Assembly: GCA_009801085.1 (NCBI GenBank)
Contig: VNWV01000044.1
Location: 28,571-92,570 of the forward strand
Origin: Lasiodiplodia sp. COLG20
Taxonomy: Eukaryota > Ascomycota > Dothideomycetes > Botryosphaeriales > Botryosphaeriaceae
Length of the DNA: 64,000 nucleotides
Reading direction: 5' to 3'
The notes below the pieces were generated by a model that did no database searches, was not told the DNA's origin, and saw only the letters and a program-made list of their open reading frames with translations. The stretch's first letter is position 1. Every line of letters begins with the position of its first letter. Of the stretch, positions 34,754 through 59,511 are shown one piece after another. The translations under genes and the position numbers were made by a program.

Positions 34754-37015
34754 ATGGAGGCCGATGGAACAGGCTCCGCAGGGACTTCTCGAAGCTCAAG
34801 CCTTTTACGTATTGGCTCAGATGCGAAGTCTTCGTGTGAACTCACAGGTCCCTTCCCCGACGGACTTTGCAACCGCTGCCAAGATCTGAAGATTCATGAC
34901 CGTGACGTCGGCGAAAGAAGATGGAGCGAATCCTTCACTGTATCTTACTCACTGGAGGATATTTTGCCAGACCTTCCAGTTCTGTCACAATCCGCACTAC
35001 GCGGGTGCAAGTTCTGTGAACTGCTGAAGTCAACCATCTTTGAGCTTGTATCCGATAACCAACGACATCAGTGGCTTAGTAGCGCAGCCTTATCCACACG
35101 CAGTCCGACCTATACGGTGTTGCACGACGCCGGCCTTTCCTATCTCGAAGTACCAGTGAAATTTGAGAGATTATCCGATGTGGTGGAAGAGACCGAATTG
35201 GTGGATGAGTCTGAATTGGGGAAAATAGTCGAATATAACATTCATTTCGAAGTCGAATCTATAGAAGGTAAGCCTTTTTTTTTTTTTTTAAGAACGGCCA
35301 GTATGTTACTAGTACTAAAAATGGTTTAAGTAGGCGATAGCAGAAGCTGGCTGAACATTACGAGAAGGCCTTTAGAGCGTCACCCGCTATCCGAGAAAAA
35401 TATGGCCAAATTCAAGTCCTGGCTACACCAATGTCATAATGAACATGAACATTGCCAGCTTGACAAAATTACGAAGAAGCTTCCGACACGACTCTTGGCT
35501 GTGGGTGGAGAACCGCTCAACGAATCACCTCGAATCATTATCTGTTCAGAACATCTCACGCTGACAGATTGCGAGGAAACACCGTATATAGCTCTCAGTC
35601 ACTGTTGGGGAAAAGGGATAACGCCGATGAAAACAGAACGCCGTTCACTTTCCGACCGAATGGCAGGTATCCCGCTGGATACTATGCCCCGGACATACCA
35701 TGACGCAGTACTTCTAACCAGGTCTTTGGGAATCTCGTATCTTTGGATCGACTCGCTGTGTATCTTGCAAGACGACAAAGACGACTGGAAGAGAGAATCA
35801 TCATCTATGGCTGAAGTGTACCAGAACGCATATTTGACCGTTTGCGCCTTGGTGACATCTTGCAATGATGGCCTCTTTCGAGGAAGTAGAGAACGGGGAG
35901 TTAGGATACCGTTCGACTCGCAGATCACAGAAGAACGTGGCGACTATTTCCTTCGTCATGCCGCGACCGTCTCTCGTTATGAAAGTATGACATCCCCGGG
36001 ATGCTACGAAACTATCAGAATTCAGGACAGTAGACGAGGAAGCACATGGCTCTCTCGTGGGTGGACTTTCCAAGAAGAGCTATTCTCCACCCGGAGACTG
36101 CTTTGCAGCGAGAGAATGATCTACCTTGATTGCAATATGGCATCATGCTCGGAGAATAGTAGTATACTTTCCAAACCTTTCTCCGAAAGCCTTCCATCAC
36201 GTTTGAGGAACAGCCCTCGCGCCCTCTTGTTCTCCGACTGGTACGGATTCATCTCATACTACTCTGAGAGGTCCCTAACATACGAACAAGATCGGCTCCC
36301 TGCTATCTCATCGTTGGCAGCTTCATTCGCGGAACAAACTGAGGACAAGTACATTGCGGGACTCTGGAAAAATGATCTACGCCGCGGACTTTTCTGGTAC
36401 AGAGCCGATGGTCAAGAGAACCGGCCCAACCTCTCTGACCTGATCAAGAGACTCACGTGTAGATCACAGTTCATTGCACCGTCCTGGAGCTGGGCGTGTG
36501 AGAGCCGCTTTACTAAATGGGTCCGAGGAAATGAGCTTGACTCTGTTCAATACAAGGTGTTGAAGGCGTGGTCAGATACTGACGATATAAACTCTTTCGG
36601 TAGTATTACTAGCGCTCACCTTGTCATGGAAGGTAAACTTCTTGTACTTTCTCACATTTTGTTACGGGCCAGTTTTCGGGGAGATTCCTTTGACGCTAAA
36701 TCACCAGGTTCCTCCTTTGGAGACTGGTATCTGGATTTCGATCCAGAAAAGGACGATGTTGTAGACTGGATGGAACAATCGGAAACCAACCGCGCGATCA
36801 TGTTCATCTTGACAAAGGGAGTTGGTTCGGACCCAATTGGATCCTTCGAATCACTTTCGGGTTTGTTGTTACATCCAACGACGTGCCCAAATGAATACCT
36901 ACGCATTGGGATCTTCCGCGCAGTACGCAGGGCTGATAAAACCGGTCACTTTTTGCCCAGTCTACTCCACGATTTCCTCGAGGACGCGCCTTGTCGTAAG
37001 ATTCGACTTATTTAG
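34754..37015 (+). CDS. HET-domain protein, 731 aa
   Basis: Exons 34754-35267 and 35334-37015; the intron (GTAAGC...TAG) contains a run of 15-16 T. The N-terminal 170 residues have a CNRCQDLKIHD motif and CKFCELLKSTI, the Cys-pair lead-in common to this HET subclass (C-x2-C...C-x2-C). The HET domain begins about residue 256 with YIALSHCWG, then YLWIDSLCILQDDKDDW and MAEVYQNAYLTVCAL, then RGWTFQEE. This layout is the very common fungal HET expansion family rather than the classical het-c/het-e partners. It is 18 kb from the death island, so a direct functional tie is not implied. Confidence 0.9.
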
Positions 37016-39063: not shown

Positions 39064-40183
39064 ATGCCGCGCATCTCTATCACGAGCCCGTATTTCACCG
39101 GGCCGCTGCTCTGGGTCTTGTGCGGAGCGCCAAGCTCGATTCAGTTACCGGTATTTCGTCTTCTAGGTCGTCTCGGGCCCTTTGTCTTTGCCCCTCGCGC
39201 CGTTTTTGCTGTAAAGCTTCTTTTCGGAATTGGGATCCTCCGCAAGGTGAACGACTGGCTCAACAGAGTGGCTACCAATGGATGGCGTGTTAGAGACGAC
39301 AAGGCTCGCTGGGACTGGTCCAAGGAGATTGCAGTGGTGACGGGTGGATGCAGCGGTATTGGTGAGGTTGTCGTGAAGGGTTTGGTGGCTCGAGGGGTGC
39401 GCGTCGTTATTCTTGACGTCCAGCCACTGCCAGAAAGATTGGAGAACAGTGAGGCTTCAGACGAACGGGATGAAAGTATACAATGTGCTGACCAGTGGAG
39501 CAGACAATATCTTCTATTTCCATTGCGATATTTCCAATTCTGAAGCTGTCTTAAAGATAGCAGAGGAGGTCAAGAGCTTGGTGGGGAATCCATCTATTCT
39601 TGTCAACAACGCTGGTATTGGATCCGGGTCAACTATTCTTGAAACGACACCAGAGCATCTCCACAAGATATTCGGCGTCAATCTTCTTTCCTTTTGGTTC
39701 ACATGCGCTGCTTTCCTTCCGCACATGGTGCAGGAGAACAAAGGTCACATCGTAACGGTTGCCAGCTTGGCCAGTTTCGTCGCCGCTCCCAATCGTGTAG
39801 ACTACACCTCCACCAAAGCCGGTGCATTGGCATTCCACGAAGGTAACTACCGCTACTTCCTAGCTGAGAATCATGGCTCACTTTGTTTTGAAGGCCTCAC
39901 CCTGGAACTTCTCCACAACTACAACGCACCAAACGTCCATACGACCATCTGCCATCCGAGCTTAACGACAACGCCGCTTCTGTCTGAATTCACAGGAGAC
40001 ATTGAGAAAATGAAACCAATACTTCTATCCGCTGAGTCGGTGGGTGATGAGATATTAAACGGTATCTTCTCCTGCCGCGGTGGCCAGATCATTCTGCCTC
40101 GGAGCTTTTCTGCTCTTAGTGGATTGCGTGGCTGGCCGCATTGGATCCAGCAATGGGTGAGAGATCAAGGTGCTGAGAAATGA
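39064..40183 (+). CDS. Short-chain dehydrogenase/reductase, paralogue of the 25-kb SDR, 337 aa
   Basis: Exons 39064-39448, 39504-39842 and 39894-40183. The second intron is 51 bp, divisible by three and free of stops, so unspliced reading would add 17 residues. Splicing gives AFHEG-LTLELLHNYNAP, which matches AFHEG-IGQELRARYNAP of the other SDR, so it is taken as real. The core shows TGGCSGIG, VNNAGIG and YTSTK (Tyr-x-x-x-Lys). The hydrophobic N-terminus (ITSPYFTGPLLWVL) parallels the SDR at 24797-25990, with the first intron at the equivalent place. NAD(P)-dependent alcohol/ketone oxidoreductase of membrane-associated type; substrate unknown. It is convergent with the P450 gene. Confidence 0.92.
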
Positions 40184-40646
40184 GTCGAACTGTGTATACT
40201 TAGCGTTATCATTTAGATGGCGAAAATGGTTTATACTATCCCCCTTGGCGATTTCATCACTGCTCGACAGGAACCGATTCAGTTTCCTATAAATTGCAGA
40301 GTAACTCCAACATCAAATTATTGCGTTCATTCTGCCGCGCGAACCATCAAATGTCATGGGTACCTAATAGAGAAAACAGCTCACACGCTCTCACTAGCTT
40401 TTCCCCTCGGATCAATCTCCTGATACTTCGCAGCCTCACCAATGTCGACTCCAAAGATCCTGCTGTCTCCCTCTCCCCACCACCTCAAGCTGAATGTAAC
40501 CCTTCCAGGCTTGAAGCTGTCCGCTCCTCCATCCTTCGTAGCGATTCACTATTTGTTACATCAGCACTGCTTGATTGCACTACTTCATCTCGTAACCGTT
40601 GCATAAGGCTACTCCCCGCCAGCACGCTCATCTTCTCTACCAAACA
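40184..40646. other. Convergent 3' region between SDR and P450
   Basis: No gene is seen. A plus-strand frame through 40294-41226 is a shadow of the P450 coding strand. Confidence 0.6.
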
Positions 40647-42434
40647 CTACCCCCTTCCCATAAGCGCAGCAATCTCCGGCTCCAGCTCCCTCGCCCTGCA
40701 CGCAACGACAGCCTTCGGGTCCGGCAAGAAGCGTGATTCCAACAAGCTTTTCGGCGGCGACCCAGAAACCTCCCAATCGTACTTCATCAACAGGTGCGCA
40801 AGAGCAATCTTGATCTCGTTGCTCGCGAAGAACCTCCCAGGGCACGCGTGCCTGCCGTGTCCGAAGCTGAGGTATTCGGGAGTAGTAGTGACGAATTGCC
40901 AGCGGTTCGCCTGTCCGGGTTGTGCACGCAACTCAAGAAAGCGGCGGCCGTTGAACTCGTGCGGGTTCTTGAAGACGTCGCCGTCGCGCATGTCGTATGT
41001 CGAGAAACCAATAAAGACGCCCTTGGGCAGGTGCGTGCCGTCGGAGAGGGTCATCGGGGCTTCGACGCGCCTGTTCATGCTCGCTGTTGCCGTGTCAGCT
41101 CTGGAACAAAGCCCCGAGGCATCGATCGGTTTGCTATTTGGATGGGAGAGAGGCTACTTACTTGGGCCGAGGACGTTCAGGCGCTGGCTCTCCTTCATGC
41201 AGCTGTCCATGAGCATCATCTTGTAGAGGCTCGTCTTCTTCCATCCTCCGTCTTCCTTCAACACCCGTGTGATCTCCTCTCTCAGGTCGTCAATGTACTC
41301 TGGATGGTTGATAAGATCATACATGATACTAGTGAGCACGGTGGATGTCGTGTGAATGGCAGCCAAAGACAGGAAAAGCTGGCCTCGAGCCACATCGAAC
41401 TCGCGGTCTCTTCTGGTATCGTCCAGCCAAGAGAGGGAGTCTTGAGGTTTGACGACATCTTTACGGGCCTTCCTGCGCGCTTCTAGTTCGGGCTCGAGGA
41501 TGACGCGAGCGTGTTTGATGAGAGATCGCTGGTAGCGTAGAAGGGGCAGGAAGCGGTGAACGAACGGGCGCAGGAAGGCAGGCCAGATACGAAGAGATTG
41601 CTGCGCCTTGAAGGTGACGGCGGTGAATTTAGTCGATATGTCGATCCAATCCTCGTCGCGGCAGAGACGCTCTCCAAGAAAGACTCGGGCAGACAGGCGG
41701 GCAGCTATTTGGACGGCTACTGAGGAGATGGGCACGCCCTTCCAGTCTGCTTGTTCATGAGCATGGCTACAAGACACCTTGAAGTATGAGTCAAGTTTCT
41801 GCTCACCTCGCCCCACTGGAAGATGGGTATCCAAGATTTCAGTTGTGTGGTTCGATAGAACTTCAGTCAGGCTACCCAGGGACTGGGTTAGGTTTTTGCG
41901 AATTGTCTCCTGGATGATGTCGCCCTGGGTTCCAGCGTGCAAAACATCGAGACCTGGGAAATTGGTAAGACCTTGCTGAAATCAAGTTGTGGTGTTAGCT
42001 AATAATCCCAACGCAGGAATGAAGCTCAACATACACGCTCGAGAAAGCCGGAAAACGATAGTCGAGGGTCGTTACGAATTTCGTCGCACAAAGACAGAGG
42101 AAGGATTACAACTGGGCCGTGTTTGGTTATCACCTGAAAAGCGTGTCCATTGGTCTGTGAAAATTAGCATCTGGAGCGAATGTTGAAATGCTTGAAGACC
42201 ACAGTGTTGTTGGGGATATACTTTGTTAAACCCTTCCTTCATAATTGCAGGGGCATTGTAGTCCCATTGCTCTTTCGCTTTGCGAAGGAATAAGTCGCTC
42301 CCACGCTTGCCGGCAAGATAAAAGGATTTGAAAGGACGATCCTCGCGAGTCAACCAGTACACGAAACAGAACGCCAACGTAGTAAAGAAAAAGAATAGAG
42401 GCGCAGGCCTCTGGTAGTGCTCCATGGATTCCAT
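40647..42434 (-). CDS. Cytochrome P450 (ent-kaurene-oxidase-like type), 508 aa
   Basis: Five exons on the minus strand: 42434-42222, 42154-42035, 41975-41807, 41749-41162 and 41083-40647. The 57-bp third intron (41750-41806) keeps the frame if retained; removing it gives the expected LPVGR-ADWKGVPISS. An N-terminal membrane anchor is seen (PLFFFFTTLAFCFVYWL). The I-helix has AAIHTTS, with His in place of the usual acidic residue, as in many fungal gibberellin-type P450s. The K-helix has ESQR (E-x-x-R). The heme loop is FGHGRHACPGRFF with ligand Cys444. It is an ER monooxygenase that needs a P450 reductase. With the neighbouring SDR and MFS genes it looks like a terpenoid or other secondary-metabolite tailoring enzyme; that is inference. 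Confidence 0.93.
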
Positions 42435-43144
42435 TGCGGAAAAAATAGTAGTCCTTAGAGCTGTCTCGCTTTAGTCGTGAGGTTTTTCGATCTAAAGTCG
42501 ACGGCACTGCAGTTCATATATAATTATACTATCAGTTCGGAAGTACATCATCGCGCCCTTCCCAGCATTCAAAGTTCGAAACCCAAGACTGCGCCTCATA
42601 GTCCCGTAGGATCTTGGCGCTAAGGAAAAGTTACGAGCAAATAATACGAATGCGAATCCGAAACGGCGGGTCGACTGTGTTTTTATTGGATGATGTTTAA
42701 ATACGCGCAACAGTCTTGGCTCGATAACAAGGAGACTTATTATAAGACTCGAAAGCGAAGTAACGCAGCCCTACAGCCGGTGAAACGTATCAATGAATCA
42801 GTGGTTAATTACTAACCAGCACAGCCTCGTTGGTCGTGGCCATTGACTGCTCCCATGGCTGTACAACATCTTCAACTCAGGCCCACTAATGGCCAACCCG
42901 TTCCATCCTTGCCCAGCGATAAGCTTCATTCCGTAAGCAACGACGCTCTATTACCTAAGAAGCCTGCTCAGATGCATTGGCTTTTGTCCTTTTCTCCTTT
43001 TCCTTGCTTGGCGTGCAGAAGGAGAGTCTCAGCCAGCGGAAGTTAATGCGCGGGTATTCGTAGTAATTCAGATGATTGTAAGGCTCATGTCACACGTTCT
43101 TATTCTCAAACAGAGGTGCAGTAATTAATATATACATGTGTTCT
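42435..43144. other. Intergenic, promoter of the P450
   Basis: No gene is seen. The TATA element of the P450 is listed separately. Confidence 0.5.
42515..42526 (-). promoter_or_regulatory. TATA box of the P450 gene
   Basis: On the minus strand TAATTATATATG lies about 80 bp upstream of the P450 start codon. Position and sequence fit a TATA box. Confidence 0.5.
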
Positions 43145-44748
43145 TTATAGATTCTTAAGTTCATATCTTCTTCGAATATACGCGCCATACTTTACAATGA
43201 AAAAAGGGACAGGAATAAGCGCGCAGGAAATAAACCCAAGCAAGCTATTCCCCCATCCCAACCCGAGCTTGTCATACATCTTGGAAGCGCCAAGTGGAAG
43301 TAATGCACCAGCGATAGATCTTGGTGTCGAGAGAGCAGCGAGAGCGGATGCGGAGTACAGATTGAAAGTGTCGACCAGATATACACTTATTGTGATGGTG
43401 CTAAGGACATTTCCTAGAGCATACATTAGCTAAGCGGCTCGACTTGTGTTTGATAGAAATCGTTATACTAACCGAGGCCGAAGAAATATAAGCCGATGAG
43501 CGGAGCAATCCAGTGTACGCGGTATTGAGCAGTCCAGCCGTAAATGAAGAGGCCTATAGGTATGCTGAATGAGGCATAGGGAAGCAGCTTTAGCCGAAAC
43601 TCTGGCTCGAACTCATCCTTTTTCAACTGCTCTGCAGCATCGCCATCGCTCGTCCAACTGTGCCAGATCAGGCTTGTGATAGACCCTAGTCCGACGCTGA
43701 TGAAAACCAACCCAGAAGAACTGGTTGAAAAGCCGTAGGTTTCCTGGAAGACGACGCTTACAGAAGCGAAGAGCAGATAGAGATAGCCGTAGATGACGAG
43801 CATGTATGTAGCGAATATGAGGACCAAAGGCGAGCAGAAAAGGATGTAGTACGGTCTCAGGATCGACCGTTTAAAGAGGTCGGCGCTCGTTAGGCCCTTG
43901 TCGAGTTTTGAGCGGAGTAGTGTATTTCCAGTCTCTCGGCGCAGCATCTTGGTCTTCCGCTCGAGTAGAACGGGTGCGTACGACTCGCTCATGAAAAGGG
44001 CCATGCAGACGGTCAAAGCCCCGGCGATCATAACCAGAACCCAGAAAACCCACCGCCAACCCTTCGATGTGACGAGAAAGCCTCCCATAATGGGCCCGAC
44101 AATTGGCCCCAGCATCGGCACGACGCTGAAGGCAGCCATGACGCGAGCCCTGCTTTCCAGCCTGACGATGTCGGCTATGGTGCCGCCGCCGTTCGAGAGG
44201 ACACAGGAGCCCAGGGCGCCGGAGAAGAAGCGGAAGGCGACGAAGGAGCCGATAGACGGGGCGAGAGCACAGCCGACTAGGAAGGCGACGAACCCGATGT
44301 TCGTAACCAGATAGACGACAAAGCGTCCGTACATTTCAGACATGGGGGCCGCAATCATCGGACCGACAGCGTAGCCCAGAACGTAGACCGACAAGACAAA
44401 GCTGCTGAGCTCGCCGCTGGTGCTGTTGAAGTCGTGCAGGAGCTGCGGCGTTCCGGGAGCGAATGCGGATGATGCGAGAGGGGCCAGGAGGGTCAAGAAG
44501 CTGACAAGAGCGCAGTTGACGAACTTCTTGCGCGTGGGCCAGTTCTGTGGGTTCATCGGGTCATCGTCGCTTTCCCATCCCACAATGTTCGCGTCATCTG
44601 CGTGGCTCGGTGTTTGAACACTGCCTTGCTCGAGATCTCGTGTTATGCTGCTTGCGGGATTGTCGCACGGAGTTGAAGCTTGTGCCTCATGTATTTTCTC
44701 GTCGTCGTAGCCTGGAAGGTCATCCGTTGTGTGTTGCTGATCGGCCAT
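43145..44748 (-). CDS. MFS transporter, DHA1 drug:H+ antiporter type, 514 aa
   Basis: Exons 44748-43473 and 43413-43145; the intron (GTTAGT...TAG) has a GCTAAT branch. A cytosolic N-terminus of about 70 residues ends in DDDPMNPQNWP, the standard lead to TM1. Family motifs are seen: PMSEMYGR, the LGPIVGPIMGGFL antiporter motif C, GWRWVFW and FEPEFRL. Twelve helices are complete, with YSASALAALSTPRSIAGALLPL near the end. Such transporters export azoles, toxins or the product of a nearby pathway using the proton gradient. It is head-to-tail with the P450, 710 bp apart. Confidence 0.93.
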
Positions 44749-44924
44749 TAGGAAACAGGGTTTGTAGTGTGCAGAGGGTAGGATTGAATCAAGCTCAGTC
44801 CAAGTTTAGCAACATAGGATGAAACCAGGTACGGAGAGTTAAAACTAAGAGGCTGAAGTGTAGCAGGGCGCAGCTGTTTTATTTGCATTTCCGGCAGTGG
44901 ACGGCTTTCATTATTTTCCGTATA

Positions 44925-45749: not shown

Positions 45750-48700
45750 ATGTTCCAAAGACTGCGCGACTCGCTTTTCCCGGGCCGGCAGGCGGTGCCG
45801 ATATCGAGCGATGGGCGCGAGATCCCGCTGCGGGTGAGCCACGGCCCGCATCTACTCGACCCGCGATCGGGCCGGCCGTACATATCCAACGGCATCCGGA
45901 CCACACGCTACACGCTTTGGGACTTCCTCCCGAAGCAGATCCTCTACCAATTCTCCCGCCTCGCAAACTTCTACTTTCTGTGCATGGCCATCCTCCAGCT
46001 TATACCCGGCCTGAGTACCACGGGAAACTTCACCGTCCTGATTCCCCTTCTGATTTTCGTGTCGCTCACAATTGCCAAAGAGGGCTACGACGACTTCAAG
46101 CGGCATCGTCTCGACCAGGTTGAGAACCGCCGAAACGTAAGCGTTCTAAGGCCTGCGGCGTCGCCGCCGAGCGATGCGCACAGCTTGAGTGGCACCCCCA
46201 TGGAGCTTCTGAACAGGCCGTCCGACGAAGACTTTGAGTGGACTTCGACGCAGTGGCAGCATCTCCAGGTCGGCGATGTGATCAAGCTGTCGAGGGACGA
46301 CGACATTCCAGCAGACATCATCCTCCTCCACGCCGACCAGAACGCGGCATACATCGAGACAATGGCGCTGGACGGCGAAACCAACCTAAAGAGGAAACAG
46401 GCACCGAGCGCTCTGGAGAACTGCGACACGCCCAGGAGAATAGCCTGCAGCAACACCACCTTCACCGTCGAGGATCCCAACCAGAACCTGTACCGTTTCG
46501 ACGGCCAGATAACTGTAGACGGCAAGGTAGCGCCGCTGTCGGACCTCTCGGTGATCTACCGCGGCAGCACCCTCCGCAACACCAGCTGCGCCATCGGCCT
46601 GGTCATCAACACGGGCGAGGAGACCAAGATCCGCATCAACGCCAACCGACACCCACAAGCCAAGCGGCCGCTCCTCGAGTCGTTCATCAACAAAGTCGTC
46701 ATCTTCATGGCCCTTCTCGTCCTCTCCATCGCCGGCCTCGGCTTCCTCGGCTACACTTTATGGCAGCGCAGCCGCGGCGGCCAACCTTGGTACCTGCACG
46801 CCACAACCGTGCCCTTCCAGGAAATCTTCTTCGGCTTCATCATCATGTTCAACAGCGCCGTCCCCATGTCGCTCATCATGGGCCTGGAAGTCATCAAGAT
46901 CAACCAGATGAACTCGATCAACCGCGATTTGGAGCTGTACCACGCCGCCTCGGACACGCCTGTCCGCTGCAACACCGACACCATCATCGACGACCTGGGG
47001 CAGATCGGCTACGTCTTCTCCGACAAGACGGGCACACTCACCGAGAACGACATGCGCCTCCGCAAACTCAACGTCGCCGGCACGAGCTGGGCGCACCAAA
47101 CGCCTGCTGTGGGTGACGACGAGCTGACGACAGACGAACTCGTCGAGTTCATGCGGCTGCGCCCCTCCTCGCCCTTCGCGTTCGCGGCGCGCCAGTTCCT
47201 GCTCTGCCTCGCCATCTGCCACACTGCGCAGCCCGAAGCTCGCGACGACGGAGAGTTGGCGTTCCAGGCATCGTCTCCGGACGAGCTGGCGCTTGTCAAG
47301 GCAGCGCAGGAGCTCGGTTTCTTGGCCATCGAGCGGTCTGCCCAGGCTATTACGATCGAAACGCCAGAAGGGCAGCGCCAGACGTATGAGATTCTCCACG
47401 TGCTGGAGTTCAACAGCGACCGGAAGCGCATGTCCGTCATCGTGCGATGCCCGGACGGGAGGATATGGCTGATCTGCAAGGGTGCTGACACGGTGCTCGC
47501 GCCGCGTATACGGGCGGCGGCGTCGACGGGCAGCTTCGAAAGGGCGGGGTTGGAGCAGTTTGGCGAGACGGCGACGTCAGGCGCTGATCAGCTCCCGTCA
47601 AAGTTCGAAGGACTCGAAAGCGAGGCGATTTCCGACGAGGCAGAAGTCCGCAGGCGGTGCTTCATGGCGCTGGATGACTACGCGCGGCAGGGCCTGCGCA
47701 CGCTGCTCTTCTGCCAGCGGTTCTTGTCCGAATCCGAGTACCAGGAGTGGCAGATGCGTTACCACGACGCGCAGATCAGCCTGGTGGATCGGCAGCAACG
47801 TGTCGACGCAGTCGGTGACGAGATTGAACAGTCGCTCGAACTCGCCGGCGCCTCAGCAATCGAGGACAGACTGCAGGACGGCGTGCCCGAGACGATCGAG
47901 CAGCTGCGCAAGGCCGGCATCAAGGTCTGGATGCTTACAGGAGACAAACGCGAGACGGCCATCAACATCGCACACTCGGCTCGAATCTGCAACGCCTCTT
48001 CGACCATCTACGAGCTCGACGTCGACGACGGGAGGGACCTCGAGACGCAGTGTCTGGACCTCCAAGCAGCGCTGCAGCAATATTCGAAAACCAGCGCGCA
48101 CACGGCTCTCATCGTCGACGGCAACACGCTGCACGCCATCCAAGACGACACCAGCGGCGGCCGCGTCCAGCAGCTCTTCAACGCCATCATCCCCGTCGTC
48201 GACTCCGTCGTCTGCTGCCGGGCGTCGCCCTCGCAGAAGGCCCTCCTCGTCGCCGCCATCAAAGACCACAACCCCCGCCGGGGCCACAGCCTCCTCCCCC
48301 ACTGGCTCACCCCCCACCCCCGCCAACCCCTCACCCTCGCCATCGGCGACGGCGCCAACGACCTCTCGATGATCACGACCGCGCACATCGGCATCGGCAT
48401 CTCCGGCAAGGAAGGCCAGCAAGCCTCCCGCATCGCCGACTTCAGCATCGCGCAGTTCCGCTTCCTGGCGCGCCTCCTCCTCGTGCACGGGCGCTGGAAC
48501 TACCACCGCACGACGCGCTTTATCGTCGCGTCGTTCTGGAAAGAGCTGTTCCACGCCGTGCCGCAGGGGCTGTACCAGTGCTTCGTCGGCTTTTCCGGAA
48601 CAAGCATCTTCGACTCGACGGCGCTCATGCTGTACGGCTCGCTGTTCACGACGTGCGCCATCATCGCGCTCGGGTCGTGGGACAGGGATTTGCGGGCTGA

Positions 48701-50764
48701 TACGCTGATGGCCGTGCCGCAGCTGTACGAGTATGGGAGGGCGGGAAGGGGGCTGGGGTGGGCGACCTTCGTCGGGTGGGTGGTCAACGCGTTTGGGGCT
48801 GGGTTGCTGGTTATCTTTGTGAGTTGGGCCGGGTACGGGTCGTCCGAGGCGGTGGAAGATAACGGGCTGTACGCGTTCGGCGCGCTGGTGTATGCGATGG
48901 GAATCGTCTGGGCTAACGTCAAGCTGATGATGGTGGAGATGCATAGCAAGACGGCTGTCGTGCTGGGCATGTTTGCGGGGACGGTGGCGGCCTTGTTTGC
49001 TTTCCTCGGCATCTGGTCGGTCAGCGGCCCGTACGTGTTGACGCCGTTTGCTGTGCGGCACGGGTTCGGGAAGACGTTTGGACCGGATGGGAGTTGGTGG
49101 CTGACGCTGGTCGTTGGGCTGATGCTGTTGTGTGCGGTGGAGCTGGTGCTGAAGGCGCTGCAGCGGCACCGCCTGGCCCGCGTCATCTGGACGAGGGTGC
49201 TGCCGGGGAAGGATAGGGCTGAGCTCGAGGGCGGGGGCGTCTGGGGGGGTTTTGAGGCGTGGCACCCTTTCCTTTGGCAGGAGATCGAGCAGGATCCGAA
49301 CGCGAGTGCCCAACTCCGTCGACTCAGGCCGGCGTCTGAAGTGCACCACGCTGAGTCTCCCATCGTTGACGGCGGGAAGAAGAGCAAGAGGCCGAAAGGT
49401 AAGCCGTGTTGCCCCGTTTGTGTGATATCGCTAACCTTGCTGTGCGAACGTAGACACTGCGTGGCACCAGCAGCGCCTTTGGTCCTGGAAGTGAGTGCCA
49501 TTGATTTCAACCATGGCGGTCCCCTCCTCGTTACTAACCGCTCCTCCAGACCAATTCTCACCACCAAAAGAGCCATCATGTATTTCTTCACCATATCCAT
49601 CGTCGCCTTTGCCATTGGAGTGGCATTGACGGTGAAAGGCCGCGAAGTACGTCATTGCCGAAGCGCCCTTCTGAGAGTCTCGTTGCTGACAGTCCGCAGA
49701 CCGAAGAGATCTCCATCGACTATACAGACTGCTGGAAACACTCGCCCGTCGGATCAAACAGCACCTTCCCCCCCAACACGACCACATTCACCCCGATCCC
49801 CGGCGCGCGCGTCTCCAAGAACTTCAAGCGAACCAACCCAGACGCCACGCCGGCAGCCTGGGCCCACAGCTTCAAGCAGACTGGCCGGAACACCACCACG
49901 GCCATCTGCTCCATCCGCTTCGACATCGAAAGCAGAATCCCTCCACCCGTCTTCATGTACTACCGCCTCTCCGACTTCTACCAGAGCCACCGCGACTACA
50001 TCAAATCCGTCGACAGTGACCAGCTGGCCGGCGCAGCCCGCAGCGCCTCTTCCATCAGGGGCAGCGACTGCGAATCCCTCGACATCGACCCAGAGACGAA
50101 AAAGGCGTACTATCCCTGCGGCCTCGTCGCCAACTCCATGTTCAACGACACTTTCTCCCAGCCGCGCCGCATCGATGATGCGAACACGACGTATTATTAC
50201 AACATGACGACCACGGGCATCGCCTTCGCCACCGACAGGGGTCTCGTCAAGCAGACGCGCTACACGTTAGACGAGGTCGTCCCGCCGCCCGCCTGGCGCG
50301 CCAGGTATCCGAACGGCTACGCCGACGGCGTCCCCGATCTGTCCGCGGACGAGGCCTTCGTCGTGTGGATGCGTACCGCGGCGCTGCCGAACTTCAGGAA
50401 GATGGCCATGCGGAACGATGAGGATGCGATGCCGGCTGCGCGCTACCAGGTCGATATTGAGGACAGTAAGTGTTTTGCTGCCAAGGTTGCAGGGCGTTTC
50501 GCTGACTGAGGTAGATTACGACGTTTCCTCGTTCGGGGGTACCAAGTCTATCGTCGTCACCACGCGCGGGAATGTGGGGTCGAAGAGCCATAACCTCGAA
50601 GGCTTTTGCATGCTGGTTGGATGCGTTACGTTCCTTCTCGGTGTGGCTTTCGCGGTCACTGGCCGGATGAAGTCGAGGTGAGTTCTCTGTGTTTACGAGG
50701 TGATTATCGTCTAATATTCTGGTGTAGGAGGCTTAGTGATCATATACTATTACCGGTGATGTAA
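45750..50764 (+). CDS. P4-ATPase phospholipid flippase fused to its CDC50/LEM3 beta subunit, 1582 aa
   Basis: Six exons: 45750-49398, 49454-49490, 49550-49646, 49700-50465, 50515-50677 and 50728-50764, with GT...AG introns of 49-59 bp and CTAAC or CTGAC branches. Residues 1-1137 are a complete P4-ATPase: ILYQFSRLANFYFL (TM1), DGETN (Asp208), TM4 with PMSLIM, phosphorylation site DKTGTLTEN (Asp425), MLTGDKRETAINIAHS, GDGANDLSMI (near 867), and ten helices ending about 1137. After a cytosolic stretch of about 100 residues the same frame continues as a full CDC50: KKSKRPKDTAWHQQRLWSWK (1210-1229), TM1 about 1238-1258, an outer domain with Cys and N-glycosylation sites, and TM2 1544-1566. No stop and no usable ATG lies between the halves. 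P4-ATPases move phospholipids to the cytosolic leaflet and normally need a separately encoded CDC50 chaperone. Both joined ends are cytosolic, so the fusion is topologically sound. The ATPase half reads closest to Dnf-type enzymes. Confidence 0.92.
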
Positions 50765-51978: not shown

Positions 51979-53367
51979 ATGTCAAAGAAGCCAATTTTCG
52001 CAGCAACTCATCCTCGAGCATGCTCGACAGCGTTTGAGCGCGTAGGTTCCACCAATTGAGGGCAATTGCCAAGTTACAAGTCCTTGTACTAACACCGCAC
52101 ACTGCACAGGTCTTCATGACGTGCCAGGATACGCTCCAATGCCTTCACGAGCCTTTTGGCGATGCTTTCTATTATGGCCCTGAAAGACTAGGCGAAAGAT
52201 ATGAAAATGATCCAGAAGGGCGCAAAGAGAGTGGATTTGAAGAAAGTACCTTCAAATCTATTTTTGAGAGCATTGATCGTGAAAGTGCAAAGGTTCGACA
52301 GCCTCCCCAGTTTCCCCAGAATTTGCGTCCCATGCTACCATCTGGAATCATTGTCGTTCCGTCTGCTTGGTTGATCGCTCTCCCATCCATTCCTAAGGAT
52401 ATGGAACACCACCCCTGCTGAATCTTTGGATTCGACAATCCTCAACGAACTGCGACCATGAAACAAAAAACCCCCCATTACATTGGATGCACATTGTTCT
52501 GTACAAGCACTTACCGAACCACCAACAGGGCAAGCGAGTCTTCATCAAAGACATGGCGTACTACCTGATGCCTCCGGACCAAAAGCCCGCATCCATCGCA
52601 CCATCTCTATTGGAATACACGAACAGCATCAACGGCTCCTCCGCCAACGGCTCCTCCGCCAACGGCACCACCACCAACGGCACCGCGCCCCCGCACGCCG
52701 AGCCCGCCAACCCGACCGTCGTGCCGTCCGCGCTACTCTCCTGCTTCCACTGGACCTTCCTGATCCGGCATCCGCGCAACAGCATCCCGTCCTACTACCG
52801 CTGCACGGTCCCGCCGCTCGCCGCCGTCACCGGCTGGACGTCCTACCTGCCGTCCGAGGTCGGCTACGGCGAGTTGCGGCGGCTATTCGACTACCTGCGG
52901 CGCGACGGGCAGATTGGTGGCCAAGATGGGGTTGATATCTGTGTCGTTGACGCGGACGACTTGCTGGATGATCCGGCTGGTGTGATTGCGCGGTACTGCG
53001 AGAGCGTTGGGATGGAGTTCAGCCCGGAGATGCTGAGTTGGGATGTGGAGGAGAGCCATTGCCTGGCGAAGGAGAAGTTTAGGAAGTGGGAGGGGTGGCA
53101 TGAGGATGCGATTCATTCGACGGATCTGAAGCCCAGGGCGCATGTAAGTTGGTTGGGCTTTGACGGCCGGCTTTGTGGAGAGTTTTTGGGTGCTCGAGTG
53201 CTGACTTTGTTTCCTGCGAAAAGAAAAAGGCCCCCAAGTCGGATGATGAGCTGTATGCGGAATGGGTTGGCAAGTTTGGAGAGGATGGGGCAAACGTTAT
53301 TAGAGAGACGGTGGAGAAAAATGTTGCGGACTACGAGTACCTCAAGCAATTTGCTATGAAGGTGTAG
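51979..53367 (+). CDS. Sulfotransferase-family (P-loop) protein, 334 aa
   Basis: Exons 51979-52041, 52110-52292, 52529-53143 and 53224-53367. Intron 2 is long (236 bp) with a weak donor GTTCGA; its ends are chosen because they restore AK-GKRVFIKDMA without loss. The N-terminal ATHPRACSTAFERVF fits the 5'-phosphosulfate loop of sulfotransferases, and FLIRHPRNSIPSYYR fits the 3'-phosphate motif. KPRAH and the end DYEYLKQF are usual in a fungal family of this fold. The likely cofactor is PAPS or a related nucleotide; the acceptor is unknown. An Asn-Gly-Ser/Thr low-complexity insert near residue 117-134, made by a 15-bp tandem repeat, is peculiar to this copy. Confidence is lower for the intron 2 borders than for the gene. 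Confidence 0.82.
52631..52684 (+). repeat. In-frame 15-bp tandem repeat, 3.6 copies
   Basis: AACGGCTCCTCCGCC occurs twice exactly, then in a variant and a partial copy. It encodes NGSSA-NGSSA-NGTTT-NGT in the sulfotransferase-like protein. It is probably a slippage-made surface loop that could vary in length between strains. Confidence 0.85.
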
Positions 53368-53796
53368 CTGCATCCTTTGGCTGACTGACTTGCGCCAATC
53401 GGTGTTGCTGTTTACTGGGCTCCAAACCGTTTCAACACACCAGGAACGGGAGTGGGAAATACGTAGGAAGTTGCGGAAAAAAGGCAATAGAGAAGGGCTG
53501 AAGCCACTGCGTCTGTCCAGGGATCTACGACAACTGTACACCACTTTTCTTAACGGAATGTGTACATATAAATGCTCAGCTCCAGCCGTACCCGATCTCT
53601 GAGAAGAAAAGTAAGTCGATACTGTGACATCTTAGATACTTCTTCAGCAGATTCTGAACGCACAGCCCAGTACTGCCTATCAAACAGCTTGAACCTTTTC
53701 CATTCCGCTAGCTGACATCTCAGACTAAACATTCCGCTGTCTCCATAGCTGGAAATAGATTCAAACTTGATCCTCGTATGGTATTTATTCGACGTC
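53368..53796. other. Convergent 3' intergenic region
   Basis: Lies between the sulfotransferase-like gene (+) and the bZIP gene (-). No gene or terminator-like element is recognised. Confidence 0.55.
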
Positions 53797-55459
53797 TTAT
53801 GTACAAATAACATCTAGTGCCCAGTCCGCAAAATGTCGATAAATCCTCAAAGTAGCTCTATCCAGTTTCACCGGAGGCGGTATCCGCGGGAGTAACTGCG
53901 GAGAATAGTATTCCAGCCGCGTCCCCGTAGCCACAAGATCAGCAACATCCGGCGAGTAAAGCTCCGGATGCCTCTCAAAAACGACAGGGTCCAGTTTATA
54001 CACGGAAGCACCATCGTCCATGCGCAACATCTGGAACGTCTGGCGCATATACGAAGCCGACTGGAAAAGCGAGATGGTGTCTGGAGCCGGAAGCCTTTTC
54101 TCGTCCCGGTGCAAAGCGTCCGGACGAGACTTTTTGTTGCTGATCTCATCACCCATGACTTGCGTGATCTCCCAGACGTGCACGTAGCCGTGGGTAGGCT
54201 GCTTGTATGTGCGGACCAGTTTGGACAGGTCGACTTCGACGCAGTACATGCTGGCAATGTCGAGGATGATTTCGTCCAGACGCGGGTTGGCGGCGTGCAT
54301 GATGATCAGTTTGTCGCGCAGAGCCTGGAAGGGGCACCAGTCGATGAAGGTGGGGTACGATTCGGTGATCTGCAGGGCTGATGGTCGATACTTGGGATGC
54401 AAGCGAGCATACATCTCGCGAGTAGGATTCAGCTGCCACGTGACGAGCTCCGAGAGGTGTTTATACCATCTCGTCGGTGTGTACCACGGCATGGCATCGG
54501 GGCGAGTGAGGCCGTTCCACATTGAGAACATGATGGAGGTGAATTGATCGAGTTTGTGCCTGGTTTATGTTAACTGTAGTTTTCCATGACCGGTATCCAA
54601 TCACATACAGGTGCTTATCGAGCTGTAGCGGAGGGTCGGTGTCTTTCCATTTGTTCCAGATGCATGCCCGTATAGCGGTGATGTGGTCAGAACACATCGA
54701 GTTGGAGGCTTTCATGCTCGTTTCTACCAAGGGACTGCAGGCCATGGCGTGAGAATAGGCCGGTGGACCCATCTGGTAGTTGTAAGACCAGATACCAGGC
54801 ATTTGATTGGGCAAGCTGAGAGATGTGTGTTCGTGCATGGCTACATGCTCCGTACTAGTTTCAGGCCCGCCTTCACTGTCACCTGCAAGATTTAGCATAT
54901 TCATCCATTCAGGTTGATCCTCGGTTGAGCTAGACGGCGCAGGAACTAGTGCGGTGTCGATCTCCTGCCAGAGGTCTTGAGGCTGTTCGCCAGTCTCCAT
55001 ACTGAGAGCATTCGTTGCACTGGGTTGGGGCTCTCCGCATTCTGGAGACAGGGAATCTTGGCCGGTGGCATCGCTTGGTTGAGCTTCGTTGGTCAAGTTA
55101 CCCGATTCGTCAAGCGTGCTCTGCATCAAGCGGGAAAGGTGCTGCAGAGAAGCCTGTGCGCTGGCGAGTTTGTTGATAAAGGACGTAAGCTGCTTCCGGA
55201 GGCGTTGGTTCTCCGCCTCCAACTTCGCAATCTGCTCATTCTCGGATTGGCCAGCTCTTTCCAAACGTCGCTCGAGGTCTTTGATGTAAGCAGTTTGGCG
55301 TTGGCGGAACGCCTGCTGTGACATGCGGTTCCGAAGTTTCCTGAGCGGGGACGATCAGCACCAGTTCGGACGGTAAGGCGCTTTACCGAGGCTGTACTTT
55401 CTCTCTGCTGCAGTAGCATCGGGCTCTGCGTCGGCACTTCCCATTTTCCGACGAGCCAT
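53797..55459 (-). CDS. bZIP transcription factor with C-terminal DUF3425-like domain, 518 aa
   Basis: Exons 55459-55398, 55340-54609 and 54559-53797. The first splice uses donor GTACAG, because only that choice joins MARRK...AERK in frame to KLRNRMSQQAFRQRQ. The basic region (about 20-36: N-x2-S-x2-A-F-R-x-R) and a following leucine zipper (LERRLERA...IAKLEAENQRLRKQL) are clear. The middle is Ser/Pro/Gln-rich. The C-terminal 240 residues (WYKHLSELVTWQLNPT...YPTFIDWCPFQALRDKLI) match the domain found after many fungal bZIPs, often called DUF3425. Nuclear DNA-binding regulator, likely a dimer. It may control the adjacent RidA/oxidase/aminotransferase group or the sulfotransferase-like gene; that is inference from position. 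Confidence 0.92.
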
Positions 55460-55795
55460 GATGAGATTTGGTGAGTACTGATAGGTAGACACGGCGGACG
55501 CAGGTGGGGAAAGAGAGAAAGAAGGAAGGAGGTGGCGCCCTGTGACAACCGAAAGCGAACGGGCCTGCTGACAAATTAATCAAAATTAGGTTTGGATTTA
55601 CTTGGCAGTGCCGGACAATCAACAACGCTTCATATATCAATCACTGGGCTCATACATGAGATGACATCCGGAATCGATTGCCAAATTGCAGGGAATGAAT
55701 TTTAGCTATGCAGATTTCATACTTCCTCCCAGTCTCCTTCCATAGGATGCTTCGAGATGCACGCATCTCTCTATCTACTAACTGGGCAATATCAT
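55460..55795. other. Intergenic, promoter of the bZIP gene
   Basis: No gene is seen. Confidence 0.55.
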
Positions 55796-56300
55796 TTAGA
55801 GCTTGGGAGAGTCGGTGCTTGCAATGCACTCAATCTCGACATCTGTTCCCAAAGGCAGTGACTTGACTGCAACGCAGGTACGAGCCTGGAAGATACGTCA
55901 ATACCCATTGATTAACTCCGAAGGTGATTGTTCTTACAGGCTTTGGGTCGGTGAAAAATGTGTCGTAAACTTCGTTCATGGCCCCGAAATCGCCCATGTC
56001 GGTGAGGAAGATGTTGACCTTGATCACCCTTGACATATCTGAGCCTCCAGCTTCCAGAACACTAGCGAGGTTCTGCAGGATTTGTTTCTGATACGAAGCC
56101 GTTAGCATGATTGACATACGACTGAAAACTTTACTCACGGTCCTGTCTTGAACAGTGCCTTCAATCATCTTCCCTGTCTGAGGATCCATTCCGACCTGAC
56201 CGGAACAGTACACCCGGCCTCCATCCTTCACCGCCTGGGAGAGAAATAACGGGGGCTTCGGCGCTTTCGTAGAGTAGACTGCATCTCTCGAAGAGGCCAT
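55796..56300 (-). CDS. RidA (YjgF/YER057c/UK114) enamine/imine deaminase, 133 aa
   Basis: Exons 56300-56139, 56087-55938 and 55885-55796; introns are 51 and 52 bp with good branch sites. The full RidA pattern is visible: YCSGQVGMDPQTGKM, LQNLASVLEAGGSDMSRVIKVNIFLTDM, and the C-terminal ARTCVAVKSLPLGTDVEIEC with the active-site Arg106. Length equals the family standard of about 130 residues, forming a trimer. RidA hydrolyses reactive enamines/imines, such as 2-aminoacrylate, made by PLP enzymes or amino-acid oxidases. It is transcribed divergently from the FMN oxidase 320 bp away. Confidence 0.95.
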
Positions 56301-56620
56301 GATGACTGAAAAATGAGGGAGAGTAAAAAGCCAAGATCGGATTTTGCAGGAGTACTTGGTCTCACTCGTGTATCCACCAATGCAGTCAGTGGTGGCGGGA
56401 CTAAATAGTTGGTGGCTGTTTACTAATTGTTTGGTTAGTCAGTCAGACTTGCCCCGCACTGATCACGCCCTGCAGATGACATCGGCCCCGATAAGACATA
56501 CCTATCGCCGTACGGCCAAGAATCCGCTGGGTAATGTAACGAGGCGAGGGTAGGGATGTTCAACTATAAATGTTGAATAGGCCTAAGGCACTCGAGACAA
56601 CATCGCATCCGCAGTCAATC
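56301..56620. promoter_or_regulatory. Bidirectional promoter between RidA and FMN-oxidase genes
   Basis: A 320-bp spacer separates divergent starts at 56300 and 56621. A CTATAAATG element at 56564-56572 faces the oxidase gene. Shared regulation is inferred. Confidence 0.5.
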
Positions 56621-57893
56621 ATGGCGGGCGGAACGCTTCCTTCGCCAGTCGCTCCAGCTGACGTCGTCCTCAGCATCAATGACCTCCAGGAAATAGCATC
56701 CAAGAGGCTCTCTCCATCCGCAAGAGGTACATGGAATAACGTTTTCTGCCGTATTGAACAAAAAAAAAAAAAAGCTTTTCCCTCAACACTAACATCCCTG
56801 CTCATCAGACTTCTTCAACTCCGGCTCCACCGACCAAATCACCGTCCACGAAAACACCACCGCCTACGCCAAATACCGGCTCCGCCCACGCGTCCTCCGC
56901 GACGTCTCCGGCGCCTCCACCAGCACCGTCGTCTTCGGCGAAAACATCTCCTTCCCCCTCTGCGTCTCGCCCGCCGGCCTGCAAGCGCTGGCGCACGCGG
57001 ACGGCGAGCTGGCCACCGCGCGCGCCTGCGCCTCGCGCCGCGTCCACATGGGCATCTCGTCGTACGCGAACCACACCATCGCCGAGATCCGCGACGCCGG
57101 CACGGCGGTGTGGCCCGGCATCGCGCACGGCATCCAGCTGTACACGCTCAAGGACCGTGCGAAGCAGGAGCGCATTATCCGCCGCGCGGAGGAGGCCGGG
57201 TGCAAGGCGGTGCTGCTGACGGCGGATAGCCCCGTGCTGGGCGTGCGGTATAATGAGCATCGGAATGATTTCCGCACGCCTGAGGGATTGCATTTCCCGA
57301 TTGTGGAGCTGTCGAATGAGATGATCCGCGCGACGACGCATGATGCGGGGTTCAAGCAGACGGCTTCGGACGCGCATACGTGGGGGGAGGTGGCGTGGTT
57401 GCGGAGCAAGACGAAGATGGAGATTTGGATCAAGGGCGTGTTGGCGGCGGAGGATGTGAGGCTGGCGAGGGAGTATGGGTGTGATGGCGTTATTATCAGT
57501 AATCATGGCGGCAGGCAGTTGGATGGGACGCCGGCGACGATTGATGTTCTGCCCGAGTGCGTCAAGGCTGGGGATGGGAAGATTCGGATTCATATCGATG
57601 GCGGGATTCGCAGCGGTTCGGATATTTTCAAAGCTCTGGCTTTGGGAGCGGACTGCTGCTGGGTTGGAAGGCCGATGCTTTGGGGGTTGGCGGTATGTTT
57701 GTCCTCTCAATTGTCCCTGCACAAAGCTGACATGCCATAGTACGACGGAGAGGCTGGTGTGGCGAAGATGTTGGACATCCTCTACGAAGACTTCAAGAGG
57801 TGCATGCAGTTAACGGGTTGCTCCAAGCTGGAGGACATCACTGCAGATTGCCTCGGGATTGTCAAATCAGATGGGCCGTTGGCACGGTTATGA
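56621..57893 (+). CDS. FMN-dependent alpha-hydroxyacid oxidase/dehydrogenase, 380 aa
   Basis: Exons 56621-56726, 56809-57692 and 57741-57893; intron 1 contains a poly-A run and a CACTAAC branch. It has the (beta/alpha)8 core of the glycolate oxidase/lactate dehydrogenase family: DFFNSGSTDQ, RPRVLRDVS, the S-Y-A-N region, WIKG with Lys244, SNHGGRQLDG with catalytic His268, and DGGIRSGSDIFKALALGA for FMN phosphate. There is no cytochrome b5 domain and no mitochondrial presequence, so it is a glycolate-oxidase-type enzyme. It lacks an obvious C-terminal PTS1 (it ends ARL, a weak variant). It would oxidise a 2-hydroxyacid to a 2-oxoacid; substrate unknown. Pairing with RidA hints at amino- or hydroxy-acid catabolism. 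Confidence 0.94.
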
Positions 57894-57987
57894 GGATTTT
57901 CGGCCGACTTGATTTTCTACTATCTCTTTCCCTACCAGACATCTAGATCTGCTTCCAACCCCATTCAAATTTTCGGCTTGTCACTAC

Positions 57988-59511
57988 CTACGCACTGATA
58001 TCTACATTTGCCTTGTTGATCTCCTGGCAGATGCGGCTCCTTCCGCGAATCTGCGGTCCGTATCTGATGAAAACGAAAGGGATCGGGATCATGACCAAGC
58101 TCGCGAATGCCGGAATGCTCGTAGCCCAAGCCGGCCCCAGATGCTCGTACATGCTATCGGCAGCAAGGACCAGCAAGGCGCTGGCCAAGCTACGTCCGCA
58201 GCTAGCAGCAGCCATGGCGCTTGCAGAGTAAATCTTGTAGGCGTCCGTCAGGTAGTTGAAAAAGACGATGAAAATAAGCATGTACGCCACTCCAAAAGGC
58301 AGGCCGGCCAGTATGGGGACGATCCAGTGGACTTCAGGTCGGCTCGTCCACGCGAGCCAGAACATGGATGCAGTGAGCACCGGGCCTGCCCCGCACGCGA
58401 GTGGCAGTCTCTGGTATTCCTCTTTGAAAGACCAGGATTCGCCTCGGCCTTTTGCGTTGTGAAGCTTGCGGTCCCACCAGAAGAATATTGCCAGTGCGAC
58501 AGCAGAGCTGACGGCGATGGGGAGCAAGGCGAGGCCGGCCGTTTGAGGAGCCATGTTGTAGACTCCGCGAAAGATGAAGGGATAGGCCTGGAAGAATAGG
58601 AAGAGCACGGAGAAGATAAGAGAGACATACATCGTTGTGAAGATGACAATGGGCTCGGTGAAGAGCATTTTCACCGGACGAGCCAGAGAGACGATGAGCA
58701 TTTGCAGGAGGCCCGTTTCATCGCCGGGCTCTTGGTTTTGGGGACGCTCATGCTTGCTTCTCAGGACGGGCTCGTACGTTTCGGGAGTAGTGACGAGCAG
58801 CAAGAAAGTGCATCCGGCGATTATGGTAGTCAGGTAGTATGACCATCTCCAGCTGATCAGGCTCACGTAGCCGAACACGACGGGCCCCGTTGTAATTGGA
58901 ACAACCGAGAGCTACAAGGCGTCAGATATTATTTGTAGAGGGCCCTGGTATGCATACCGCAGTGTATATGGCGGTTGCGCGTCCGCGGGTGCGCTGGTCG
59001 ACGTAGAGATCTGCATAGACGCCGCCAATGACTGAGATGGGGGTTGCCCCGCCGACACCGGCTATGACTCGGAATGCAACGAGGGCTTTGAATGACGGGG
59101 ACAGGCCGCAAGCTAGAGAGGCACAAGTGTAGATGGCGAAGCTCAGAAGACTGATGGGCTTGCGGCCGTACTTCTCACTCAAGGGAGCAAAGAGGAGAGG
59201 ACCGATGACGTATCCAAGAAGAAATACGCTTGTTGGTAGGGCTGCCTGTACAGGGCTGGACACGGAAAATTGTTTCCGGATGTACAGCGAGGTGCCCCCA
59301 GGTAAACTGGAGGAAATGGTGCTGTTGCACATGGCAAGACAGTAGACCGAGGCCACGAAAAGCTTCTTTTTCTGTCCAAGAGGTTCAGTACAGTTGGGGC
59401 TAACCATGATAAACTTTAGCTTACTCGAGTCCATTGGTTTGGAGGCTGATGTTCCAGCTCTGGGGCTGCATCGACAGCATCAGCTGCCACATTTTCTTGG
59501 GATTTCTCCAT
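57988..59511 (-). CDS. MFS transporter, DHA1-type, 474 aa
   Basis: Exons 59511-59425, 59371-58958 and 58911-57988; introns are 53 and 46 bp. A short N-terminus (PPNQWTR-KKKLFV) leads into TM1. Motifs seen: PLSEKYGRKP (motif A), VDQRTRGRATAIYTA, ISWRWSYYLT, TPETYEPVL, and YSASAMAAASCGRSLASA near the end. It is complete. It is convergent with the FMN oxidase gene, with their stop codons 95 bp apart. It may import or export the substrate of the oxidase/aminotransferase group, but direction and cargo cannot be read from sequence. Confidence 0.92.

Follow-up and report, generated by a model that had tools for sequence, protein, structure and literature searches.

A predicted natural fusion of a P4-ATPase with a CDC50 beta subunit in one gene of Lasiodiplodia

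The literature presents P4A flippases as heterodimers that depend on their beta subunit for stability, trafficking and substrate binding. In the parts of the reports available for yeast, the partners in Drs2-Cdc50, Dnf1/Dnf2-Lem3 and Dnf3-Crf1 are separate genes and separate chains (PMC6944739, PMC8514546). The Lasiodiplodia gene described here has two halves that are both recognisable members of these families with the expected motifs, but it encodes one chain instead of two. Among alveolates, Toxoplasma and Plasmodium have a P4-ATPase naturally fused to a further domain; the source gives a guanylate cyclase as the fused partner and CDC50 as a separate interacting protein (PMC6592433), whereas in Lasiodiplodia the fused partner is CDC50 itself. 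The P4B flippase Neo1 is likewise one polypeptide, but it is described as having no beta subunit and shorter loops (PMC8514546), while the Lasiodiplodia protein retains a whole CDC50. Another fungal P4-ATPase with a special role is BbCrpa from Beauveria, which acts in detoxification by vesicle transport and is functional with a C-terminal eGFP; the accessible portion of that report mentions no fusion to CDC50 (PMC10322151). An earlier description of a P4-ATPase/CDC50 fusion was not found in the literature searched.

The window analysed is a stretch of 64,000 nucleotides from contig VNWV01000044.1 of Lasiodiplodia sp. COLG20, for which it had been predicted that the frame of a P4-ATPase runs without a stop codon into a CDC50/LEM3 protein. 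This was borne out, with 1,582 codons open after splicing and a TAA stop at 50762–50764 (Table 1). The two introns named in the original prediction both exist and precede the first CDC50 helix, but the total is five, all of the GT-AG type and 49–59 nt long, and the calculated mass of the product is 176 kDa rather than the 170–175 kDa first estimated. The 26 codons open before the first donor site are not significant alone (chance ~0.44 at the local base composition); what chiefly speaks for a fusion is that the CDC50 N-tail is in the correct frame, that the CDC50 half has introns in common with the separate CDC50 and that the layout recurs in other species. On this sequence evidence the interpretation of the gene as a natural alpha–beta fusion is supported.

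Table 1. Features of the fused gene (positions in the window).
Feature	Position	Strand	Basis
Complete fused gene with start and stop codons; 1,582 aa in six exons	45750..50764	+	Spliced open frame; P0001 and P0002 alike in layout
Exon 1	45750..49398	+	Splicing at GT-AG sites
P4-ATPase half, residues 1 to ~1196, single exon; DGETN 208, PMSL 372, DKTGTLT 425, GDGAND 866	45750..49337	+	Pfam, motifs, alignment with unfused ATPases
Linker, not clearly homologous to either parent, ~residues 1197–1209, inside exon 1	49338..49376	+	Alignments of both parents; in frame in relatives too
CDC50 homology first recognisable here, in KKSKRPK of the cytosolic N-tail (residues 1210–1216), end of exon 1; K1213 aligned to Lem3 Arg-51	49377..49398	+	Alignment
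Intron 1, phase 1; position and phase of intron 1 of separate CDC50	49399..49453	+	Splicing, alignment
Exon 2, CDC50 N-tail	49454..49490	+	Splicing
Intron 2, phase 2; counterpart in separate CDC50	49491..49549	+	Splicing, alignment
Exon 3, first CDC50 helix (residues 1237–1255)	49550..49646	+	Splicing, hydropathy
Intron 3, phase 0; counterpart in separate CDC50	49647..49699	+	Splicing, alignment
Exon 4; carries the lumenal domain of CDC50, including Cys 1272, 1331, 1385, 1401 and FNDTF glycosylation site	49700..50465	+	Splicing, Pfam, alignment
Intron 4, phase 1; counterpart in separate CDC50	50466..50514	+	Splicing, alignment
Exon 5; the lumenal domain ends here, followed by the second CDC50 helix (residues 1546–1564)	50515..50677	+	Splicing, hydropathy
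Intron 5, phase 2; counterpart in separate CDC50	50678..50727	+	Splicing, alignment
Exon 6, short C-tail and stop; L. theobromae model stops short of it	50728..50764	+	Splicing

A search for the same arrangement elsewhere gave two named proteins (P0001 and P0002) with the same domain order, the annotated proteins of L. hormozganensis and L. theobromae (1,580 and 1,588 aa; 89% and 87% identical), and the open reading frame of P0005 continues beyond the ATPase into CDC50 as far as its first helix. P0007 (66%, 1,098 aa) stops ahead of the linker and hence says nothing about a fusion in its lineage. The fusion is shared within Lasiodiplodia, and public databases already list it under ordinary P4-ATPase names. 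Chimeras made by merging neighbouring genes in an assembly or annotation do exist, as two Aspergillus models (P0003 and P0004) joining CDC50 to SWIRM and PF05572 look like merged neighbours. Such an artefact is nevertheless extremely improbable here, because the junction recurs in independent records, and it lies within one exon and is made without a splice.

The same junction bears on the possibility that one locus yields two chains, through alternative transcripts or proteolysis of the linker, which then form an ordinary heterodimer. The linker is a plausible loop and is less conserved (83–85%) than the ATPase part (89–90%); in P0006, moreover, the frame closes within intron 1, so that retention of this intron would give the ATPase alone. 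In COLG20, by contrast, the frame stays open even if introns 1 and 2 (114 nt together) are both retained, and the end of the ATPase, the linker and the CDC50 N-tail share a single exon. Between relatives, moreover, the linker differs in length by whole residues, in keeping with one continuous frame. The CDC50 part is continuous with the ATPase in the spliced frame, where no start codon of its own was found. The original prediction was right that no internal ATG precedes the first CDC50 helix, because the last in-frame methionine, M1125, sits in helix 10 and the next one, M1239, already lies within the first CDC50 helix. We consider two separate chains unlikely.

The ATPase half scores above the curated Pfam cut-offs for PhoLip_ATPase_N (PF16209, 80.9 bits) and PhoLip_ATPase_C (PF16212, 231.2 bits) and contains other P-type ATPase domains too. 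The catalytic motifs DGET (208), DKTGT (425) and GDGxND (866) are intact in all five sequences compared. A PISL-type motif in helix 4 is a feature of P4-ATPases; the substrate motif at 372 reads PMSL instead of PISL, and PLSL in the unfused relatives. Hydropathy gave nine peaks above threshold before the linker, against the ten helices expected of a P4-ATPase. In the phylogenetic tree the alpha half falls into one clade (support 100) with short DNF3-like accessory P4-ATPases of ~1,240–1,290 aa from Colletotrichum, Diaporthe and other Sordariomycetes, the class to which the named members of the accessory clade belong, and this clade is sister to, and apart from, the long proteins named DNF3, a label that rests on the source names in a tree built without yeast Dnf3. 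Long branches in the initial ATPase tree led to a second version leaving out three paralogues of the same genome; both were built by a fast method, with SH-aLRT as the sole measure of support. The short relatives carry no CDC50 and stop where the linker of the fusion starts, the C-terminal ends of all seven compared aligning with residues ~1194–1199. Judged from its sequence, the alpha half may be an old paralogue or a transferred gene.

The CDC50 half reaches 233.7 bits for CDC50 (PF03381) from its main exon alone, which is above the curated cut-off, and 282.6 bits in the spliced P0001. Hydropathy places two membrane helices on either side of the lumenal domain. For comparison we used the two disulfides, the Asn-240 glycan and the Arg-51 lipid contact of Lem3 as described in the literature (PMC7773333): Cys 1272, 1331, 1385 and 1401 align with Lem3 Cys 110, 159, 216 and 231, which form these disulfides, and N1410 and K1213 align with Asn-240 and Arg-51, respectively. 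Recognisable homology begins ~24 residues past the usual CDC50 start. All five introns agree in position and phase with those of the separate CDC50, and a retroposed origin was rejected because they are retained. The beta half is a duplicate nested within the CDC50 of Botryosphaeriaceae, which leaves the idea that the complete fusion was acquired from Sordariomycetes without support.

The count of separate CDC50 genes proposed in the original prediction gave one intact gene (C45) and one degenerate fragment (C9) beside the fusion, and the genome encodes at least four other P4-ATPases. Could the fused CDC50 then be vestigial, the ATPase relying on the separate CDC50 in trans, which is the presumed arrangement in its relatives? 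Besides the presence of this separate copy, the faster evolution of the fused one speaks for it: the fused CDC50 is just 52% identical to the separate CDC50 of the same genome and has a long stem in the tree (1.26 changes per site), and constraint on it appears weaker, since identity between species is 84–86% as compared to 98.4% for the separate CDC50. The cysteines, a glycosylation site and the N-tail are, however, retained in three of three spliced sequences, and the C9 fragment, which contains stops, shows what becomes of a freed copy, so that we give a vestigial CDC50 little probability. C9 is the sole other CDC50 of the fused type in the genome (49% to the fused CDC50 versus 39% to the separate CDC50 of L. 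theobromae); as a candidate second fused copy it was rejected, with no convincing ATPase match within the 9.5 kb searched.

The fused gene is located on a contig of 92.6 kb that carries several HET-domain genes. A backbone synthase domain, as in a biosynthetic cluster, was found neither in the 28 ORFs scanned among the 51 long ones outside the fusion nor in the 8 scanned of 12 ORFs in the contig's initial 29 kb. An extra, fast-evolving gene in such surroundings might be a non-expressed or decaying accessory gene whose fusion has no function, but all six exons are open, the catalytic motifs are intact as described above and the proteins of two other Lasiodiplodia species align with it over their full length, all indels being in frame. 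We regard decay as very unlikely.

Instead, the continuous frame, the completeness of both domain sets, the loss of the ATPase stop and of the CDC50 start with ~24 residues, the retained CDC50 introns and the layout found also in other Lasiodiplodia make it probable that the gene encodes a single-chain flippase, in which the C-tail of an accessory DNF3-like P4-ATPase leads into the N-tail of a duplicated CDC50. The chain would insert as 10 plus 2 helices, both CDC50 helices would pack against its own helix 10 and the lumenal domain would cap the ATPase loops, with K1213 placed where Lem3 Arg-51 contacts the lipid. The argument that the joined ends are both cytosolic fits, with CDC50 homology picking up again in the cytosol beyond helix 10. 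In solved complexes the beta helices pack against helix 10, the last of the ATPase helices, and this contact geometry would gain evolutionary support from a fusion whose joined ends face the same side of the membrane. The enzyme might exit the ER independently of the shared CDC50, and a fixed 1:1 stoichiometry and the loss of partner choice would follow; a separate CDC50 could still bind the fusion in trans, or the chain could be cleaved. Its likely job would be that of a specialised flippase alongside the housekeeping set, and a substrate of the PC/PE type is a guess by analogy to Dnf3.

In summary, our reading is that the gene encodes an accessory flippase in a single chain and is evolving more rapidly than its housekeeping paralogue, and these plant-associated fungi appear to encode pump and helper as one continuous protein. 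Tentatively, it may be the first natural single-chain alpha–beta flippase, bringing its own beta subunit and not needing the shared CDC50, and the tie between the ATPase C-tail and the beta N-tail just before the lipid-exit residue might rewire tail-based control, giving a pump that is always assembled and differently regulated. With parts that can separate, it is hard to test whether the beta subunit serves mainly for ER exit or takes part in each transport cycle. The retention of the beta subunit in a natural single chain points to tolerance of permanent attachment, and such a chain would offer an enzyme of fixed 1:1 composition for structural and transport work.

The spliced frame of the fused gene is free of stops and encodes 1,582 residues, and the gene boundaries of the original prediction proved correct. 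The two introns described there do precede the first CDC50 helix, but three more follow downstream, giving five in total, and the exons after exon 1 code for the remainder of a whole CDC50/LEM3 protein. As had been claimed, no internal ATG precedes this helix, the in-frame ATGs around the junction being M1125 in helix 10, the last ATPase membrane helix, and M1239 in the first CDC50 helix. Introns 1 and 2 together measure 114 nt, a multiple of three without an in-frame stop, so that even without splicing the frame stays open and reaches into the CDC50 part as far as its first helix; the fusion-type ORF P0006 has a stop within intron 1, unlike the window. GC content is 61–63% across the fused gene (window 46001-50000) and 47–59% in the window's remaining 2-kb bins.

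Features of the fused gene, its surroundings and related genes in the genome
Feature	Location	Strand	Remark
Fusion gene	45750-50764	+	6 exons, 5 GT-AG introns of 49-59 nt
Exon 1	45750-49398	+	whole P4-ATPase, linker and first 7 residues of recognisable CDC50 homology
Introns 1 and 2	49399-49453, 49491-49549	+
HET, NACHT-like/ankyrin and CHAT genes (jointly)	window 4939-7611, 13984-16140, 35330-37012, 11005-13404; L020:7460-8080, L020:2334-5129; L021:6770-9109
Degenerate CDC50 fragment	L018:4347-4867; G000:C9 about 109346-109866	-
Drs2-like ATPase	C34
Dnf1/2-like ATPase	C10
Neo1-like ATPase	C1:3833k
DNF3-like ATPase	C1:2404k		label from 46% identity to a DNF3-named protein; no DNF3 chain among its structure matches

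The 26 codons upstream of the first donor had a chance of about 44% of being open, and thus the openness of the junction says little by itself. The last residues of exon 1, KKSKRPK, belong to the CDC50 N-tail and share the reading frame of the ATPase; splicing joins them to the conserved segment that follows in this tail. A protein search in which only the CDC50 part was scored (proteins of about 870–2,770 residues, 5,898 candidates) gave five proteins at E <= 0.001; it relies on shared five-residue words, and fusions of distant eukaryotes would escape it. P4-ATPases with a C-terminal CDC50 domain, for which a search had been proposed, were found in L. hormozganensis (P0001, 1,580 aa) and L. 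theobromae (P0002, 1,588 aa), with identical domain order and 89% and 87% identity to the window protein. In the ORF P0005 the frame continues from the ATPase across introns 1 and 2, left unspliced, and enters the first CDC50 helix before it is lost. The remaining two of the five matches are Aspergillus models in which CDC50 is joined to unrelated domains and the ATPase is absent. In these (P0003, A. turcosus; P0004, A. thermomutatus) CDC50 lies between SWIRM and PF05572 and the usual N-tail is missing; they are probably merged neighbouring genes. From LWQEIEQDPNAS to KRPK we counted 38 residues in the window, 39 in P0001, 38 in P0002, 38 in P0005 and 43 in P0006, with frame-keeping whole-residue indels in sequences other than P0005, which equals the window sequence there and contributes nothing further. 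P0006 (85%) comprises the ATPase, the linker and KKTKRPK before its frame is lost at the intron 1 position; the fused-type CDC50 ORF P0123 reports a contig of equal length, which hints, without proving it, that the two lie together. The in-frame N-tail, the recurrence in relatives and the frame-keeping indels say more than mere openness.

The fusion proteins are deposited publicly under ordinary P4-ATPase names. Among the full-text matches listed from open-licence PMC papers (the first 20 where there were 50, 21 and 282), titles and abstract starts indicated no natural P4-ATPase/CDC50 fusion, and term searches of the flippase reviews PMC12424579 and PMC4937031 and the oomycete domain-fusion paper PMC2705460 returned none. 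The fusion is public in databases yet, as far as could be seen, unremarked.

To place the alpha half we reconstructed a quick tree of 34 ATPases (SH-aLRT support only, yeast Dnf3 not included), in which it forms one clade (100) with four fusion-type relatives, P0007 (a 66% relative of 1,098 aa ending before the linker) and 11 short Sordariomycetes proteins that are DNF3-like by their source names. Longer DNF3-like proteins fall outside. Within the clade, the closest to the fusion group are two proteins of Diaporthe, a placement that is less well supported (88). In the alpha search (8,000 candidates scored, 4,022 passing, best 120 considered) the matches listed beyond the fusion-type sequences and P0007 reach 39–55% over the best local stretch. 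Their named genera we take to be Sordariomycetes, and no further named Botryosphaeriaceae protein is among the matches listed (best 120 of 4,022).

All seven short unfused ATPases that were aligned (three from Colletotrichum, two from Diaporthe, one each from Camillea and Fusarium floridanum) stop at positions equivalent to about 1194–1199 of the fusion. Homology to CDC50 becomes recognisable at 1210–1211, a point that in the separate CDC50 (contig C45, stretch L001) comes after about 24 residues. Thus the join cost the ATPase its stop and CDC50 its start and first residues, and little else. The separate CDC50 has five introns of phases 1, 2, 0, 1 and 2, and the fusion shares all five phases and places, with an offset of 1,185 residues in introns 1 to 3 and of 1,176 in introns 4 and 5. 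Hence the beta half arose by copying of a CDC50 gene at the DNA level, and a retrocopy origin is ruled out.

In a tree of 35 CDC50 sequences six fused-type ones form one clade (100/100), namely the window, P0001, P0002 and three ORFs that may or may not be fused themselves. The stem of this clade measures 1.26 changes per site. Together with the CDC50s of Lasiodiplodia, Diplodia and Neofusicoccum the clade makes up a group of 11 rows (100/98), whose branching order the tree does not resolve. A third, degenerate CDC50 on contig C9 is closer to the fused (49%) than to the separate CDC50 (39%). No convincing ATPase match was found in 9.5 kb around it. Possibly the fragment is what is left of an earlier copy of the fused gene or of the fusion's unfused ancestor.

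The ATPase motifs DGETN, DKTGTLT and GDGAND are intact in all five sequences and the CDC50 motifs in all three spliced ones, P0005 and P0006 being outside the latter count with their CDC50 part out of frame in the ORFs. Nine hydropathy peaks lie upstream of the linker and two downstream. The helix 4 motif is PMSL. As to substrates, PMC6944739 lists PC and PE for yeast Dnf3-Crf1. Lem3 Cys 110, 159, 216 and 231 each have an aligned cysteine in the fusion, and Asn-240 and Arg-51 of Lem3 align with N1410 and K1213; according to PMC7773333, these Lem3 cysteines form two disulfides, Asn-240 bears a glycan and Arg-51 contacts lipid at the exit site. The same paper has the beta helices packed against helix 10, the A domain bound by the Lem3 N-tail helix, and lipid uptake reduced when residues 2–49 are absent. 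Since the junction lies immediately upstream of K1213, the beta N-tail retains its exit-site portion, with the ATPase C-tail in place of what preceded it; tail control may thus be changed. The tie from ATPase to beta helix spans about 100 residues (1134 to 1237). A P4-ATPase can bear a C-terminal addition, as the fungal BbCrpa is still functional with eGFP there, according to PMC10322151. From its anatomy, the fusion would assemble by itself into a flippase.

Identities to P0001 and P0002, counted over aligned columns, are 89–90% for the ATPase part, 83–85% for tail and linker and 84–86% for the CDC50 part (BLASTP of residues 1205–1582: 83% and 81%), and the separate CDC50 is 98.4% identical (418/425) to that of L. 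theobromae, which suggests Lasiodiplodia as the genus of the window. Together with the long stem, the lower identity shows weaker constraint on the fused beta half, which counts against reading the protein as a single-chain flippase.

The same contig carries several genes with HET domains, one gene of NACHT-like/ankyrin type and one with a CHAT domain, which suggests an accessory region. ORFs around the fusion (window 39377-44805, 52397-63885) carry SDR, P450, MFS (two), sulfotransferase-like, aminotransferase III and SnoaL-like domains, with no backbone synthase among those scanned. A P4-ATPase family search of the genome gave at least eight matches at no fewer than five places, and the count of separate CDC50 genes called for by the original prediction yielded one intact gene (C45) plus the C9 fragment with stops. 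With other ATPases and a separate CDC50 present, the fusion is thus an additional gene, being neither the sole flippase nor the sole beta subunit of this fungus.
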